From Flavobacteria bacterium BBFL7 (GTDB lineage Bacteria; Bacteroidota; Bacteroidia; Flavobacteriales; Flavobacteriaceae): DNA of 64,000 bases. Of the stretch, positions 21,181 to 31,342 are shown piece after piece; position 1 is the first letter of the stretch; every line of letters begins with the position of its first letter. The stretch lies in contig CH672374.1 in NCBI GenBank assembly GCA_000153385.1, positions 1,366,544-1,430,543 of the forward strand, written 5' to 3'. Under the pieces are notes generated by a model that saw only the letters and a list, made by a program, of their open reading frames with translations, made no database searches and had not been told where the DNA came from. Made by a program: the position numbers and the translations under genes.

Positions 21181-21236
21181 ATTCTTTCTGAAATAAAAAT
21201 TACACCTTTCTTATCTTTACCTAAAATTTGCAACAC

Positions 21237-22622
21237 ATGAATACTAAAACTTATGTTGATCAACACAAAGATCGATTCATAAATGAACTGATAGATTTAC
21301 TTAAAATCCCTTCTATCAGTGCTGATCCGGCTTATAAGAAGGATGTTATTAAAACCAGTGAGGCTATTAAAACCTCTTTAGAAAAAGCTGGCTGCGATCA
21401 TGTTGAAATTTGTGAAATTCCTGGATATCCTATTGTTTATGGAGAAAAAATAATTGATAAAAATCTACCTACTGTTCTAGTTTACGGTCATTACGACGTT
21501 CAGCCGCCGGATCCAGTAGAGCTTTGGGACAGTCCTCCATTTGAACCAGTTATTAAAAATACAGAACTACATCCAGATGGTGCCATCTTTGCGCGTGGTG
21601 CTTGTGATGATAAAGGTCAAATGTACATGCATGTTAAGGCCATGGAATATATGACAGCCAATAACGAGCTACCATGTAACGTGAAATTTATGATCGAAGG
21701 TGAAGAAGAAGTTGGTAGCGAGTCTTTAGGTTGGTTTTTAGAACGTAATCGTGAAAAGCTAGCAAACGACGTGATTCTAATCTCTGATACAGGAATGATT
21801 TCCAAAGATGTCCCTAGTATTACAACTGGTTTACGTGGCTTAAGCTATGTAGAAGTAGAAGTTACTGGACCTAATCGTGATTTACACTCAGGCCTTTATG
21901 GTGGCGCTGTTGCAAACCCTATCAATATATTATGTGATATGATTGCTCAGCTTCATGATGAAAATAATCATATTACCATTCCTGGATTTTATGATAAGGT
22001 AGAAGAATTAAGCACAGAAGAGCGTGCCGAAATGGCTAAAGCTCCATTCTCTCAAGAAGCTTACAACAAAGCCTTAAACATTGCAGCAGAGCATGGAGAG
22101 AAAGGATATACCACTAATGAGCGTAACAGTATACGCCCTACATTAGACGTTAACGGAATTTGGGGTGGATATACTGGTGAAGGTGCAAAAACAGTAATTG
22201 CTAGTAAAGCATTTGCAAAAATATCAATGCGACTTGTACCGGATCAAAACTGGCATGAAATAACAGAATTATTTCAGAAGCACTTTGAAAGTATTGCTCC
22301 AGCAAGTGTAAAGGTTAAAGTAAATCCGCATCACGGTGGTACTGCTTATGTAACACCTATCGATTCATTAGGTTATCGCGCTGCCAGTGCAGCATACGAA
22401 GATACATTCGGCAAAACACCTATACCGCAACGCAGTGGTGGTTCTATTCCTATTGTCGCTCTTTTTGAGAAAGAATTAAATTCAAAATCTATACTTATGG
22501 GCTTTGGGCTGGACAGTGATGCCATACATTCGCCTAATGAGCATTTTGGTGTATGGAATTACCTCAAGGGCATCGAGACTATTCCTCATTTCTACAAACA
22601 TTTTACAAAAATGAGTAAATAA
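21237..22622 (+). CDS. M20 family dipeptidase
   Basis: About 461 residues from the ATG at 21237 (an in-frame TTG nine bases upstream is less likely). Metal-site motifs are clear: VYGHYDVQPPD near 85, ARGACDDKGQ near 120, and EGEEEVGS near 150. PHHGGTAY and RSGGSIPI lie in the C-terminal lobe. It hydrolyses di- or small peptides with two zinc ions in the cytoplasm. A strong terminator follows. Confidence 0.92.
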   Translation: MNTKTYVDQHKDRFINELIDLLKIPSISADPAYKKDVIKTSEAIKTSLEKAGCDHVEICEIPGYPIVYGEKIIDKNLPTVLVYGHYDVQPPDPVELWDSPPFEPVIKNTELHPDGAIFARGACDDKGQMYMHVKAMEYMTANNELPCNVKFMIEGEEEVGSESLGWFLERNREKLANDVILISDTGMISKDVPSITTGLRGLSYVEVEVTGPNRDLHSGLYGGAVANPINILCDMIAQLHDENNHITIPGFYDKVEELSTEERAEMAKAPFSQEAYNKALNIAAEHGEKGYTTNERNSIRPTLDVNGIWGGYTGEGAKTVIASKAFAKISMRLVPDQNWHEITELFQKHFESIAPASVKVKVNPHHGGTAYVTPIDSLGYRAASAAYEDTFGKTPIPQRSGGSIPIVALFEKELNSKSILMGFGLDSDAIHSPNEHFGVWNYLKGIETIPHFYKHFTKMSK

Positions 22623-24514: not shown

Positions 24515-24575
24515 TCTACACTTGTAGAACTGAATTAATACTCTACATTTGTAGAATCAATTCTAATATTGTAGA
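24515..24575 (+). promoter_or_regulatory. triple BlaI-type operator
   Basis: Two perfect dyads TCTACA-N2-TGTAGA at 24515-24528 and 24542-24555, and a degenerate third, TCTAATATTGTAGA, at 24562-24575, only 2 bp before the ATG. TACA/TGTA dyads are the known recognition form of BlaI/MecI repressors. Centre spacings are 27 and 20 bp. Confidence 0.88.
24522..24551 (+). promoter_or_regulatory. promoter of the BlaI-M56 operon
   Basis: TTG (24522-24524), 19 bases, TACATTTG (24544-24551). The -33 lies in operator box 1 and the -7 in box 2, so repressor binding would block polymerase directly. Confidence 0.82.
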
Positions 24576-24945: not shown

Positions 24946-26796
24946 ATGGAACATTTTTTAATTAATAGTACAGCTTGTTTATTGATCCTTTGGTTATTCT
25001 ATAAATTACTGCTTGAAAATACTTCTTGGCATAAGTGGAAAAGGTATTATCTAATCCTATCTATTGTAACCGCACTAGCTATACCATTCATAGTAGTAAA
25101 AACAGTTATAATTCCTCTAGATCATAATCCCGTTATTGATTTTACAAATACCCAAGTCTTCTCAGAAATGGTAACCGAACAAAAGTTTCAATTTAACTGG
25201 ACTGTTATTTTCTGGAGCTGTTATGGTATAGGAGTCTTAATTATGTCGTGGCGTTTTGTAAAAAATTTAAAAACGTTTCGTATTCAGGAAGAAGATGAAG
25301 TTAGAACTTACAGTAAATACCAACTTGTACTACGCAACGTACTCACTGTACCTCATTCCTTTTATCAGAGCATATTTGTCTCGCATACAGAATATACAAA
25401 TGCACAAATACCAAGTACAGTCTTAGAACATGAGAAAGCACATTTGGACCAGAAGCATTCCCTCGATATTCTATTTCTGGAAATATTGTTAATTCTATTA
25501 TGGTTTAATCCGCTATTCTATATAATGAAGTATTCCATAAAATTGAATCACGAGTTTCTTGCAGATCAAGCAGTAATTCAAAAAGGTATAGACACAGTCA
25601 CCTATCAAGAAACTCTCTTACACTACACACAAAACAGTCATAGCAAAGGACTGGCTAACACTTTTAACTTTCCTATTATTAAAAAAAGATTCCACATTAT
25701 GAAAACTAATACCTCACAAACCAGTTTGATATTGCGAACACTAATATTGATACCAATCCTAACGCTTTTAGTGATTAGCTGCGGGAAAGAAGAAACAGAA
25801 TTTCAAGAAATTGAAGAGATTTTAGAAATTGAAGAAGTAGTAGATGATAATCATAAAACAGAAATTATTGAGATTTATGAAGTATTAGAAAATTTAACTC
25901 CAGAACACATTGAAGAATACAATCGTCTGGCCCTAAAGCACAAAAACTACATGAATGAAAATAATAATTTAATTGTTTTTAAGGATGAAACCCAGCATAT
26001 GCAAACCATATTTCATTCCATGAGTAAAGAACAACAATCTTCTAATGAACCATGGCCATATCTAGGAAGAGATAATGATTTAAAAGCAGGACAAATTCCA
26101 CCACCGCCACCACCAGCACCTAGTGCCATTGAATATATAAATGAACACAAAGACGAATTAAATTATTATCTCAGAGAAGATCAAATCCCTGCAGACATAG
26201 CCATAAAAATTATTAATGAAGTAGGACAGGCAGGCGTAGAAATAAGTCCAGACGATAAAGGTGTAATGTCTATTAAAATTCTGGAAACTGATAACAACAA
26301 AGGAACATTGCCACCACCGCCACCACCAGTAAAATCTAAGTCCGTGAGTGAAAAAGAATTTACTGAATATAATGAATGGGCAAAAAAAAATAATGAGCAA
26401 AATAGAGCCGCAAAGCTAAATAATAACCATAGGTATGCGATTATTAAACAAAAAGACTTTGAAAAGTACCGCTCAATCTACGGTAGAATGAGTACATCTC
26501 AAAAAAGTGAAGCACAACCATTACCTACTTTACCACCACCACCGCCACCTGCTAAAGACAAAAAACAGATATCAATTAAAGAAGTAGAGGAATACAACTG
26601 GCTTTTAAACAGACACAAAGAGTTCTTAAAAAATGAAAAAAGAATAGTCGTTTTTAAAGAAGATACTAATAGAATGATTCAACTATACACATCAATGAGT
26701 GTAGAACAACAATCAAAAAATCAGGCTTGGCATTACTTATATAAAGAAAATAGAGAAAAAGCTGCCGAAATCTTACCACCACCACCAGCTCAATAA
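24946..26796 (+). CDS. BlaR1-like M56 peptidase with repeat-polyproline tail
   Basis: A 616-residue protein. N-terminal helices (residues 5-50, 85-105) precede an M56 zinc protease core with HEKAH at 162-166 and NHEFLADQ near 201-208. A hydrophobic segment near 250-270 is followed by an unusual tail of about 345 residues. In the tail a unit of roughly 70 residues (EEYNxL...HKxxx...VFKxDxxxM...SMSxEQQSxNxxWxYL) appears twice clearly and once degenerately. Each copy ends in a run of four to six prolines. The tail replaces the penicillin-binding sensor of BlaR1. Ligand unknown. Confidence 0.85.
   Translation: MEHFLINSTACLLILWLFYKLLLENTSWHKWKRYYLILSIVTALAIPFIVVKTVIIPLDHNPVIDFTNTQVFSEMVTEQKFQFNWTVIFWSCYGIGVLIMSWRFVKNLKTFRIQEEDEVRTYSKYQLVLRNVLTVPHSFYQSIFVSHTEYTNAQIPSTVLEHEKAHLDQKHSLDILFLEILLILLWFNPLFYIMKYSIKLNHEFLADQAVIQKGIDTVTYQETLLHYTQNSHSKGLANTFNFPIIKKRFHIMKTNTSQTSLILRTLILIPILTLLVISCGKEETEFQEIEEILEIEEVVDDNHKTEIIEIYEVLENLTPEHIEEYNRLALKHKNYMNENNNLIVFKDETQHMQTIFHSMSKEQQSSNEPWPYLGRDNDLKAGQIPPPPPPAPSAIEYINEHKDELNYYLREDQIPADIAIKIINEVGQAGVEISPDDKGVMSIKILETDNNKGTLPPPPPPVKSKSVSEKEFTEYNEWAKKNNEQNRAAKLNNNHRYAIIKQKDFEKYRSIYGRMSTSQKSEAQPLPTLPPPPPPAKDKKQISIKEVEEYNWLLNRHKEFLKNEKRIVVFKEDTNRMIQLYTSMSVEQQSKNQAWHYLYKENREKAAEILPPPPAQ
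25896..26793 (+). repeat. three degenerate repeat units with polyproline ends inside the M56 gene
   Basis: Unit 1 at about 25896-26130, unit 2 (most diverged) at about 26341-26560, unit 3 at about 26565-26793. Each carries an EYN start and ends with CCACCACCACC-like DNA coding four to six prolines; a further proline run is at about 26311-26329. Confidence 0.75.
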
Positions 26797-27048: not shown

Positions 27049-28149
27049 ATGCAATCCTTCTTCATCACCTGCAGCGGTGCAGACACAGATATACTCGACA
27101 ATTGTAGCGCTGGTGAGCGTACAAAATATGCAGGTATAGGTGCCACGGTATTTTTTACCGCACTTATGGCATTTTTTGCAGCCAGTTATGCGCTGTATAC
27201 GGTTTTTGATAGTTATTTAATTGCTACTGCCTTTGGATTTGTTTGGGGTTTATTGATATTTAATCTAGACCGCTACATCGTTTCTACACTTAAGAAAAGT
27301 GATAAAAAAATAAATGAAATATGGCAAGCAACACCTCGTATTATTCTTGCGATTATCATAGCTGTAGTGATTTCAAAACCACTTGAACTAAAGATATTTG
27401 AGAAGGAAATTGATCAAGTTCTGCTAGAGGAAAAGAACCAGTTAACTCTTGAAAATCAGGAACAGGTTGCACAATTATATGTTGTGGAAGAAGCCGCTTT
27501 CGCGAAAGCGATACAAGAACTAAAAACAGAGATTCAAAATAAAGAAGCCGAAGTCAATGCGCTTTACAACATTTACATCACCGAAGCCGAGGGAACATCT
27601 GGCACCAATAAATTAGGAAAAGGTCCTGTCTATAAAGAAAAACGCGAAAAACATGACGCAGCGCTATCCGACCTCAACACCTTAAAAATTACGAATGCTG
27701 AAAAAATAGCTACCATAGAATCACAAATAGCAACACTACAGGAAAATGAAGCGACTCAATTAGCCTCTTCTCAACCTATCATTGACAACTTTGATGGATT
27801 AATGGCACGTATAGAAGCTTTAAACAAATTACCATTCCTCACTTCATTCTTTATATTCTTGTTATTTCTAGCTGTAGAAACCTCTCCTATTATTGCCAAA
27901 GTACTGGCACCACGTGGCGAGTACGACTTTAAACTTGCCGAGCGTGAAGACCTGGTAAAATCTTGGGTTACCCAACAAAGACTTCAACAAGAAATTCTAG
28001 TTCAAACCGACAAAACACTCAACAACAGAGTCTATGCCGATATTGCTGAAGAGGAAGCCCTCTATGCTTACAAGAAAAAAATGGCTAGGGAATTAATGCA
28101 AGAACAAGCCGATGCGTTTTATAAAAAGCAGAAAGGGATTTTGGGGTAG
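27049..28149 (+). CDS. DUF4407 membrane protein
   Basis: A 366-residue protein of the DUF4407 family. The N-terminus is FFITCSGADTDIL, then two adjacent helices (about 30-80) and FNLDRYIVSTLKK. A long charged coiled-coil (about 120-250), a third helix near 265-285 (FLTSFFIFLLFLAVETSPI) and a charged C-terminus follow. Function unknown. A palindrome copy at 27495-27510 lies in the coiled coil and codes AAFAKAI. Long repeat-bearing DNA follows it. Confidence 0.85.
   Translation: MQSFFITCSGADTDILDNCSAGERTKYAGIGATVFFTALMAFFAASYALYTVFDSYLIATAFGFVWGLLIFNLDRYIVSTLKKSDKKINEIWQATPRIILAIIIAVVISKPLELKIFEKEIDQVLLEEKNQLTLENQEQVAQLYVVEEAAFAKAIQELKTEIQNKEAEVNALYNIYITEAEGTSGTNKLGKGPVYKEKREKHDAALSDLNTLKITNAEKIATIESQIATLQENEATQLASSQPIIDNFDGLMARIEALNKLPFLTSFFIFLLFLAVETSPIIAKVLAPRGEYDFKLAEREDLVKSWVTQQRLQQEILVQTDKTLNNRVYADIAEEEALYAYKKKMARELMQEQADAFYKKQKGILG
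27495..27510. repeat. dispersed palindrome, copy 7
   Basis: Exact CGCTTTCGCGAAAGCG in the DUF4407 gene, read as AFAKA. Confidence 0.9.
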
Positions 28150-28636: not shown

Positions 28637-31342
28637 TTACTCCACTATTAATCGCTGCGTTATACTGCCTTGACTATTATTAATCTGAATCATGTACATA
28701 CCAGATGCTAATGAATCGATATTGAATTTATATTGATCATCAGGTTGTTGTAACTTTTTGGAGCTGATTAGCATACCACGTAAATCATAAATGGTACATG
28801 AATCAAACAAAACGTTGCTTGTGATGGTGACCGTATCATTAGCTGGATTAGGAAACAAGCTCATTGTTAGGCTAGTGATATCATTATTGCTTAATGTTAC
28901 TGCCACAGTGGTAGTTTCTAAATTAGTAATGATTGGGAAGTTGAAATCAAAATATATCCCAGCTTGATTTGAAAAGGTATCTCCTAGAACTAAAGTATCT
29001 ACAGTTTTAATTTTGAACAAAATATAACCTTGGCTGGCTGGAGCCGTATTAGGTAGGTTGATATTATCAAAAATAAATTCAAGTTTATTCCCATCAGTTA
29101 TTTGAGCTAGGTAATCGTGACTACTACTAACTGGTGTTAACGTTGAAATATCAAAAACAGAAGTATCTATATAATCCACGATACGCACATTAATAGCACT
29201 AGCAGTTCCTTCATTTTCAAAACGGATACGGTAATGAACAAACTCACCTACCATACTAGGTTCTATAGTTTCACCTTGTAAACAGGTTTTATCATTTGGA
29301 TCATAAGAATTTACTACCGTTTGGTCTAAATTAAAAACATTATCTATAGGTGTAGCATCATTTGCACTAGGCGTTATAGATGCTGTAAAACTTATAATAT
29401 CATTACTATTTAACGGAAAATTTGAGTCTGTAGGCGTGTTCATATTTAATGTAAAGTCAATTTCTCTAGTTTCAAACGGATCAAGATTTGAAAAACTCCA
29501 ATTGAGATTACCAACACTACTAGATGATACCACAGGATTTGCACTTACAAAATCCATAAAATCATCATCATAAGTAAAAGCAATATTTCCTGTTAGTTGT
29601 GTATTTCCTTTGTTCTTATAAACCAACTTATAATTAGTATCAAAACCAGGACGTGCTTCTTCTAATGGTATAATAGTGATTTCTAAATCATCAGTTGGTG
29701 TTGTTGCAGTAAGACAAAAATCTTGCGTCGTTATATTTTGATTTGCTGCTGTAAAGGTTGCACTTGCTGGTGTTGTTGTGAAAAGATTCGTGTCGATTAT
29801 CGGAGTTACCGTATAAGTGTTATCTGATAAAGGAATTGAATAATCACCGTTTATATCCGTATACAATGTGAAGGCAGTAGTTCCATTTGAAATTTCAATT
29901 CCAACATTAGAAAAAATTAAATCATTTGGGTCACAACCATTATTATCGAAATCATAAGTGATTGAACCTTGAAGTTGATTATCTAGAGCAGAACAACCAA
30001 GGTCTAATGAATCGCCATTAATCGACCATCCATTTTGTAGAAGGATATTTCTTGAAAATGAATCGCAATAAGTTAAACCAAAAGAATTCAGTGTTTTATA
30101 TTGCATGCCTAGATTAACAAATCTTTGTAACAATTTATCATAATTATTGGTATCCAACCCTGAAAAAGCGACAAATCTACGAGGATTTAAATACTGGTTA
30201 AAATCCCAATTATTTAATGGTTGATTAAAAGAAGTGGCGTTATAAAACATATCATCCATGTCAGTAACATTTGACACATCCCAGCTTGATATATTTTGAT
30301 TGAAAGAGGTTGCGTGAACAAACATATCTTGCATAATAGTTACATTCGACACATCCCAATTGTCTATGGGTTGATTAAAAGAAGTGGCGTATTCGAACAT
30401 CTCTATCATAGAAGTTACATTAGAAACATCCCAGCTTGATATATTTTGATTGAAAGAACTGGCAATAGTAAACATACGATCCATATTAGTGATATTAGAA
30501 ACATCCCAGTTTGATATATTTTGATTGAAAGAAGTAGCACGATAAAACAAGTAATCTATTGCATTCACATTAGAAACATCCCAATTTGAAATATCTTGAT
30601 TAAAGGAATTTGCATTATAAAACATATGACTAATATTTGAAACATTAGAAACATCCCAATTATTAATATTAGAATTAAAAGAACTAGCAGCTTGAAACAT
30701 ACTACCCATATTTATAACATTTGCAGTGTCCCAATTACTCAGTGGTTGATTGAAATTACTAGCATACAAAAACATCCTAGACATATCTGTAACACTAGAA
30801 ACATCCCAATTATTTAGCGCTTGATTAAAACTATACACACCATAAAACAAATCACTCATATCAGTAATATTTGAAACATCCCAATTATTAATATCATCAT
30901 TAAATTGACCGGCATTATGAAACATATGCGCCATCGAATTGCAGAGACTTAAGTCTGGAGTGTCTGAAGCATTTATATCTAAATACAAACAATCAAAAAA
31001 CATCCACTCTGTTGTTTTCCATTGTGAACTACCCCATTGAGTAATACGAGGATTATTATTTGAGGATGAAGATAGATTAAAAACTATAGAGTCTATTGAA
31101 CCTGATATAATGACTGTTCTAGTTGTAGAACTGAAAGAATGTGCTGGTACAGTTTGATTATTACCCATAGGAACATTAGTAGTCGTTCCATCACCCCAAT
31201 CTATAGTAACACCGGTTGATGATGATATACTGAATGGCCACATATTGGCTAGTATTGAGTCAAACACAAAATCGTTAGCAGTCTGAGCAATTGATAAGAA
31301 TCCAACGAAAAGAAAAGAAATAAGTAGTAACGGTTTTTTCAT
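28637..31342 (-). CDS. DUF285-repeat surface protein with T9SS sorting domain
   Basis: A 901-residue secreted protein. A signal peptide (to about 20) is followed by a short domain and about ten 25-residue DUF285/BspA-type repeats (about 145-395) with the motif FNQxIxxWDVSNVTxMxxMF. A carboxypeptidase-regulatory/SdrD-B-like domain lies at about 450-530. Beta-sandwich repeats, including the DUF7619 signature SYDPNDKTCLQGE near 670, come next, and a type A T9SS sorting domain (SLFPNPANDTVTI to RLIVE, about 830-901) ends the protein. It is therefore exported to the cell surface. Repeat sequences bracket the gene on both sides. Confidence 0.9.
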   Translation of the reverse strand: MKKPLLLISFLFVGFLSIAQTANDFVFDSILANMWPFSISSSTGVTIDWGDGTTTNVPMGNNQTVPAHSFSSTTRTVIISGSIDSIVFNLSSSSNNNPRITQWGSSQWKTTEWMFFDCLYLDINASDTPDLSLCNSMAHMFHNAGQFNDDINNWDVSNITDMSDLFYGVYSFNQALNNWDVSSVTDMSRMFLYASNFNQPLSNWDTANVINMGSMFQAASSFNSNINNWDVSNVSNISHMFYNANSFNQDISNWDVSNVNAIDYLFYRATSFNQNISNWDVSNITNMDRMFTIASSFNQNISSWDVSNVTSMIEMFEYATSFNQPIDNWDVSNVTIMQDMFVHATSFNQNISSWDVSNVTDMDDMFYNATSFNQPLNNWDFNQYLNPRRFVAFSGLDTNNYDKLLQRFVNLGMQYKTLNSFGLTYCDSFSRNILLQNGWSINGDSLDLGCSALDNQLQGSITYDFDNNGCDPNDLIFSNVGIEISNGTTAFTLYTDINGDYSIPLSDNTYTVTPIIDTNLFTTTPASATFTAANQNITTQDFCLTATTPTDDLEITIIPLEEARPGFDTNYKLVYKNKGNTQLTGNIAFTYDDDFMDFVSANPVVSSSSVGNLNWSFSNLDPFETREIDFTLNMNTPTDSNFPLNSNDIISFTASITPSANDATPIDNVFNLDQTVVNSYDPNDKTCLQGETIEPSMVGEFVHYRIRFENEGTASAINVRIVDYIDTSVFDISTLTPVSSSHDYLAQITDGNKLEFIFDNINLPNTAPASQGYILFKIKTVDTLVLGDTFSNQAGIYFDFNFPIITNLETTTVAVTLSNNDITSLTMSLFPNPANDTVTITSNVLFDSCTIYDLRGMLISSKKLQQPDDQYKFNIDSLASGMYMIQINNSQGSITQRLIVE
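30154..30910 (-). repeat. tandem 75-bp coding repeats (DUF285)
   Basis: About ten in-frame units of 75 bp; stretches such as ACATCCCAATTATTAAT and TTTTGATTGAAAGA recur. This is protein repeat structure, not CRISPR: there are no fixed unique spacers. Confidence 0.85.

Follow-up and report, generated by a model that had tools for sequence, protein, structure and literature searches.

A BlaR1-type M56 metallopeptidase of Nonlabens whose last transmembrane helix reads as an internal lipoprotein signal peptide

The window, the whole stretch of 64,000 nucleotides analysed here, comes from a genome that belongs to Nonlabens, the closest named loci being those of N. ulvanivorans and N. xylanidelens. 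The locus under study is composed of an M20 peptidase gene, paired predicted BlaI operators, a BlaI-type repressor gene, an M56 metallopeptidase gene and a gene for a DUF4407 membrane protein (Table 1), and the M56 start codon lies 2 bases past the blaI stop codon. This order is a conserved block that is near-constant across the Flavobacteriaceae, with DUF4407 and BlaI each present in 33 of 34 loci and M20 in 32 of 34. No beta-lactamase was found among the neighbouring genes scanned, as the original prediction had said. A role in anti-phage defence was considered and dropped, as PADLOC gave no match. On the minus strand, positions 28637-31342 of the window encode a protein of 901 aa that has DUF285 repeats, DUF7619 and a sorting tail for type IX secretion.

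Table 1. Features of the BlaI-M56 locus (window coordinates; residues are those of the M56 protein)
Feature	Position	Strand	Evidence
M20 peptidase, conserved upstream neighbour	21228..22622	+	PF01546; in 32/34 loci
Predicted BlaI operator 1, TCTACACTTGTAGA, perfect dyad	24515..24528	.	exact match
Predicted BlaI operator 2, TCTACATTTGTAGA	24542..24555	.	27 bp from operator 1
BlaI/MecI-family repressor, 121 aa	24578..24943	+	PF03965 95.1 bits; alignment to MecI 1okr, E 8e-10
M56 (BlaR1-type) metallopeptidase with tail, 616 aa	24946..26796	+	PF05569 38.8 bits; BlaR1 structures 8exp/8exq
HEKAH zinc motif, residues 162-166	25429..25443	+	invariant columns
Second zinc ligand motif NHEFLAD	25546..25566	+	invariant columns
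T239-F240, putative counterpart of BlaR1 autocleavage site Ser283-Phe284	25660..25665	+	profile alignment to 8exp; site position from PMC9834060
TM4, residues 258-278, reads as internal lipoprotein signal peptide	25717..25779	+	R264, uncharged run of 14, Cys; AF2 helix 258-279
Cys279 (25780-25782) and GKEE, predicted lipidation site and possible export signal C-X-K-(D/E)2	25780..25794	+	29/29 Nonlabens TM4s
Module A copy 1, residues 320-371	25903..26058	+	profile; AF2 helices 319-339, 346-358, 361-366
Proline run 1 (PPPPPP)	26098..26115	+	sequence
Module B, residues 394-447, predicted alpha-beta-beta-alpha-beta-beta	26125..26286	+	independent profile weak
Proline run 2 (PPPPPP), after module B	26311..26328	+	sequence
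Module A copy 2, residues 470-527	26353..26526	+	profile
Proline run 3 (PPPPPP)	26533..26550	+	sequence
Module A copy 3, residues 545-596	26578..26733	+	profile
Proline run 4 (PPPP)	26776..26787	+	sequence
DUF4407 membrane protein, conserved downstream neighbour	27049..28149	+	PF14362 336 bits; in 33/34 loci

The original prediction had assumed a BlaI partner, and a repressor of this family is indeed encoded directly upstream of the M56 gene. Both this partner and a TACA-TGTA dyad operator are present at the locus, as in BlaR1/MecR1 systems; TACA-TGTA is the known BlaI/MecI operator core. At least one TCTACANNTGTAGA was found upstream of the blaI-M56 genes in 34/34 Flavobacteriaceae loci, and a spacing of 27-28 bp recurs in relatives' loci having two sites. 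Upon searching the genome for CTACANNTGTAG, we found 13 sites, 11 inside genes and 2 intergenic, both before blaI; this survey counted exact matches, and a wider regulon could still act through mismatched sites. Because its two operators are the sole intergenic exact CTACANNTGTAG sites, BlaI most likely controls its own operon, which is the outcome of the check on BlaI-controlled genes that the original prediction had proposed. A wide regulon built on exact sites was rejected, considering the 11 intragenic positions and the different flanks of the tandem TACANNTGTA sites on contig 1. Elsewhere in the genome (L083-L085, C1:111346-111437), four to five clustered TTTACANNTGTAAA-like dyads lie near a small helix-turn-helix gene and an Lrp-like gene, and this cluster probably belongs to another regulator. 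The cleavage site within BlaI is predicted at F95-F96, which align with Asn101-Phe102.

The M56 protein, proposed earlier as a sensor-type protein, was confirmed over its full frame as a member of Peptidase_M56, its PF05569 score exceeding the curated cut-off of 31 bits. All catalytic residues are kept, and H162, E163, H166, E203 and D207 are invariant among 33 proteins. A profile of 33 relatives matched S. aureus BlaR1 (8exp) with an E value of 3.4e-7, and Foldseek matched 8exq with an E value of 2e-5, indicating the architecture of a BlaR1-type M56 membrane protease. The NCBIfam blaR1 model gave only 26.9 of 400 bits, confined to the M56 part. No penicillin-binding sensor domain was recognised at the C-terminus by Pfam or NCBIfam, as predicted; any ligand is thus unlikely to be a beta-lactam.

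The tail behind the protease consists of three copies of a helical module, A, one differing module, B, located between A copies 1 and 2, and four proline runs. The repeat had been described as three units of about 70 residues, each ending in a proline run. The number of copies and the proline runs held, whereas the conserved unit (pattern EYN...MS..Q...P) is about 52 residues long (50-58) and one of the four runs follows module B. With an independent profile, built from non-Nonlabens proteins only, A copies 1-3 scored 36, 51 and 31 bits, compared to at most 5.0 bits in 300 shuffled tails. Module B scored a weak 7.1 bits against a best shuffle of 4.9, and is tied to the family via Nonlabens intermediates and its predicted alpha-beta fold. 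In the AlphaFold2 model, A forms a helical hairpin and B has the order alpha-beta-beta-alpha-beta-beta, and confidence in the proline runs is low. The role suggested for these runs in the original prediction, spanning the periplasm or binding the cell wall, found no support. The repeat motif had been put forward as one without known identity, and neither module matched an entry of Pfam, NCBIfam or the PDB by sequence, so that a known sensor domain was ruled out at this level. A fold search of the PDB with A1-B returned nothing reliable (best Foldseek E 1.2). VIA placed module B nearest to an S-layer self-assembly domain at Z 4.3, which is neither a reliable match nor proof of a new fold. Our literature search found no paper on these tails, nor any that deals with BlaR1, signal peptidase, sensor domain and lipoprotein together.

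To see how far the tail extends, we searched it as a single-sequence query, and it matched in 65 of 199 Flavobacteriaceae genomes, the loci that we read being M56 proteins; it is thus far from absent in orthologues. In a sample of 395 Bacteroidota genomes, module A was found in 8, each with a single open frame and all in the same family. The possibility that the modules also occur apart from M56 was considered and set aside, module A being confined to this family in that sample, with M56 identity re-checked in less than the full set of hits. Judged from these comparisons, the tail is nothing unusual within the family, a rapidly shuffled module set that is not special to the window protein, and in some Nonlabens M56 paralogues neither A nor B can be recognised. 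Tandem arrays of two to three M56 paralogues with different tails and one BlaI occur at L151, L152, L155, L156, L160 and L128, which suggests an expansion of the repertoire. One Nonlabens genome encodes a TlpA-like thioredoxin lipoprotein between the M56 genes and DUF4407 (ORF L156_7). The window genome itself has a second BlaI-M56 pair (L035, C2:825616-828912), whose tail is of another kind, with a plug-like stretch NPLVIIDGKES...IDSMNVLKGESATEQYG and a TM4 ending in YSFN, without a lipobox or matching cysteine. A C-terminal cysteine was found in 10 of 64 M56 proteins of this type (L018, L020, L027, L033, L134, L137, L148, L149, L154 and L157; seven end in GC), compared to 4 of 311 other neighbourhood ORFs (Fisher p = 6e-6).

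The junction between protease and tail lies upstream of the interval first described, which began at position 25896, 114 bases past the Cys279 codon. It reads R264-TLILIPILTLLVIS-C279-GKEE, and its end, VISC/GKEE, is a lipobox. By sequence, a signal for SPase II is complete, with basic R264, a hydrophobic run of 14 residues and V-I-S-C279 with a small -1 residue; it sits inside the chain and not at the N-terminus, where lipoproteins carry such a signal. A lipoprotein signal within a polytopic protein is unusual. A lipobox, its cysteine continuing as CG[KQE]E, was present in all 29 distinct Nonlabens TM4s. Among the 27 full-length Nonlabens proteins the uncharged run before the cysteine is always 14 residues, and the tails behind TM4 share a median identity of just 23%. 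The AF2 helix is unbroken up to Cys279, in a model that is blind to cleavage, and the genome has an LspA gene. Outside Nonlabens, 37 of 38 relatives with the same modules carry [SG]F[SA] at the site, which is weakly signal-peptidase-like, and a lipobox as a family-wide trait was therefore rejected. The same comparison places the origin of the cysteine in or before the Nonlabens ancestor, and the 29 lipoboxes may reflect a single gain. It likewise implies that the -1 serine is largely inherited from an [SG]F[SA] ancestor and hence is not independent evidence for a lipobox. GKEE fits the Capnocytophaga lipoprotein export consensus, whose optimum is C-X-K-(D/E)2-X (PMC5080379), and differs from the SusD-type lipoproteins of Nonlabens, which are acidic at +2/+3 (+3 in 34 of 39).

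In Flavobacterium, the TM4s of the M56 proteins end in one of two ways, either in AxA/Q-type SPase I sites (VVA/QE, TVA/QE, SVA/Q, AYA/G) or in lipoboxes (LISC, LVSC, FFSC, FISC, LLSC, LFSC). By inspection, 41 of 42 TM4s have one or the other. Since a loose AxA search accepted 39% of shuffles, we turned to a strict motif, which was found in 33 of 42 TM4s and in 3 of 40 TM2 controls (p = 2e-11). On a protease-domain tree that excluded TM4, the change between SPase II sites and the rest required six steps, at least three of them forced by well-supported branches. The type of site varies among near relatives that share a TonB_C-like tail, L171 and L176 having TVA/QE and L177 and L180 having LLSC and LFSC. 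Read from motifs and tree, Flavobacterium has swapped SPase I site and lipobox several times. Flavobacterium L128 also encodes a secreted TonB_C-like protein between blaI and the first M56 gene, its likeness to TonB_C being our reading of the sequence and not a profile match.

A tail-only ORF of 292 aa was found in Nonlabens (L160, 9283-10161), located 96 bp downstream of a complete M56 gene in the same operon. It starts exactly at the MKT of the TM4 helix, has its own lipobox, IIVSC/SQE, here in an N-terminal signal peptide, and carries two B-like modules without a protease domain. Over its whole length it can be aligned, at 48% identity, to residues 256-543 of a different M56 protein. Upstream, the frame still resembles an M56 end, with NTNFHIIKH for NTFNFPIIKKR. 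This ORF could be a functional tail-only lipoprotein or a young remnant.

The closest characterised systems are BlaR1/BlaI and MecR1/MecI of S. aureus, which share the M56 gluzincin domain with its helices and the MecI-like repressor. The autocleavage region aligns as well, and a cut after the last TM helix of BlaR1 is documented: the type I signal peptidase SpsB cleaves Gly331/Gln332 in the linker, G331K blocks this cleavage, and the cleavage has been proposed to control BlaR1 turnover (PMC9834060). Unlike BlaR1 and MecR1, the window protein has neither a penicillin-binding sensor domain nor a nearby beta-lactamase, and it differs from BlaR1 further in its modular proline-rich tail, in an SPase II lipobox in place of the SPase I site and in a Gram-negative host. 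The flavobacterial M56 proteins with TonB_C-like tails agree with it in gene block, operator, helix position and a processing-type motif; they differ in having TonB_C-like sequence instead of A/B modules and mostly SPase I sites, with some lipoboxes. Bacteroidota LES surface lipoproteins share the C-X-K-(D/E)2-X behind the lipobox, the optimum in Capnocytophaga (PMC5080379); the predicted signal peptide of the window protein is internal, with its Cys at residue 279, and the SusD-type lipoproteins of Nonlabens have acidic residues at +2/+3 instead.

Taken together, we assign a probability of about 0.6 to the reading that the locus encodes a self-regulated BlaR1-type BlaI-M56 unit whose TM4 also serves as a lipoprotein signal peptide within the chain. 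In the simplest reading, TM4 is processed as a signal peptide, as it is in BlaR1, and Nonlabens switched from release to lipid anchoring. Because TM4 reads as a lipoprotein signal peptide, the Nonlabens tail probably does not stay on the protease but is cleaved and held by a lipid anchor; a lipobox at the junction argues against a permanent union of the two. What appears new here is the internal lipoprotein signal, the tail itself being ordinary. The sequence supports paired BlaI operators before BlaI's own operon, an M56 domain with a full catalytic set, an invariant lipobox at the end of TM4 and modules strung on proline runs. Lgt and LspA would then process Cys279, the counterpart of the cut by which signal peptidase I trims the BlaR1 sensor in staphylococci, and the modular tail would part from the protease to become a lipid-anchored envelope protein, perhaps of the outer membrane. 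Only when cleavage is prevented, whether through a tail-bound ligand or through failed lipoprotein processing, would the protease remain whole and able to act on BlaI. Loss of BlaI would release the operon, that is BlaI, M56 and perhaps DUF4407.

An unlikely rival is a classical BlaR1-like transducer, in which TM4 is a plain helix and the tail remains on the protease, sensing a ligand other than a beta-lactam or a mechanical state in the periplasm, with the proline runs as spacers and the cysteine in a structural role. The M56 fold, the BlaI partner and the operators all match BlaR1/MecI systems, the tail is extracytoplasmic by homology, and BlaR1 itself acts as an intact receptor before its turnover by signal peptidase (PMC9834060). 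A plain helix, however, would lead one to expect neither CG[KQE]E that is invariant despite diverged tails, nor the exchange of AxA sites and lipoboxes in Flavobacterium, nor a tail-only lipoprotein such as that of L160.

Two further readings seem still less probable. One is a sub-case of the preferred internal-signal reading, with the tail as dummy cargo that is cut as long as lipoprotein maturation and export work; upon failure of Lgt, LspA or export, uncut M56 would accumulate, BlaI would be cleaved and the envelope operon would be turned on. NlpE and RcsF of E. coli report trafficking faults in an analogous way. Such a sentinel would fit a processing site exactly between protease and tail, a signal that is fixed while the tails vary freely and the place of the system within a conserved gene block, and signal peptidase cleavage has already been proposed for the control of BlaR1 turnover (PMC9834060). 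We regard it as doubtful, since exact operator sites in the genome revealed no response gene beyond the operon and most of the family lacks a lipobox at the site. Equally doubtful is that the tail is the effector, the operon making an autoregulated A/B-module envelope protein with the M56 part merely as a regulated carrier. The tail-only ORF, the free TonB_C-like secreted protein of L128, intergenic exact operators only before the own operon and tandem copies with differing tails (e.g. L151, L152) are in line with this, but the invariant protease residues imply that proteolysis matters, and some Nonlabens paralogues have neither module in recognisable form.

BlaR1-type proteins have mostly been described as sensors of antibiotics, and the shed sensor domain has been treated as turnover. 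If TM4 is processed across flavobacteria, and in the lipoprotein manner in Nonlabens, cleavage at the junction would be conserved and its outcome, release or lipid anchoring, would be evolvable. Many uncharacterised M56 proteins would then become testable as reporters of the envelope or of lipoprotein processing, and proteins filed as polytopic could yield lipoproteins that predictors of N-terminal signal peptides miss.
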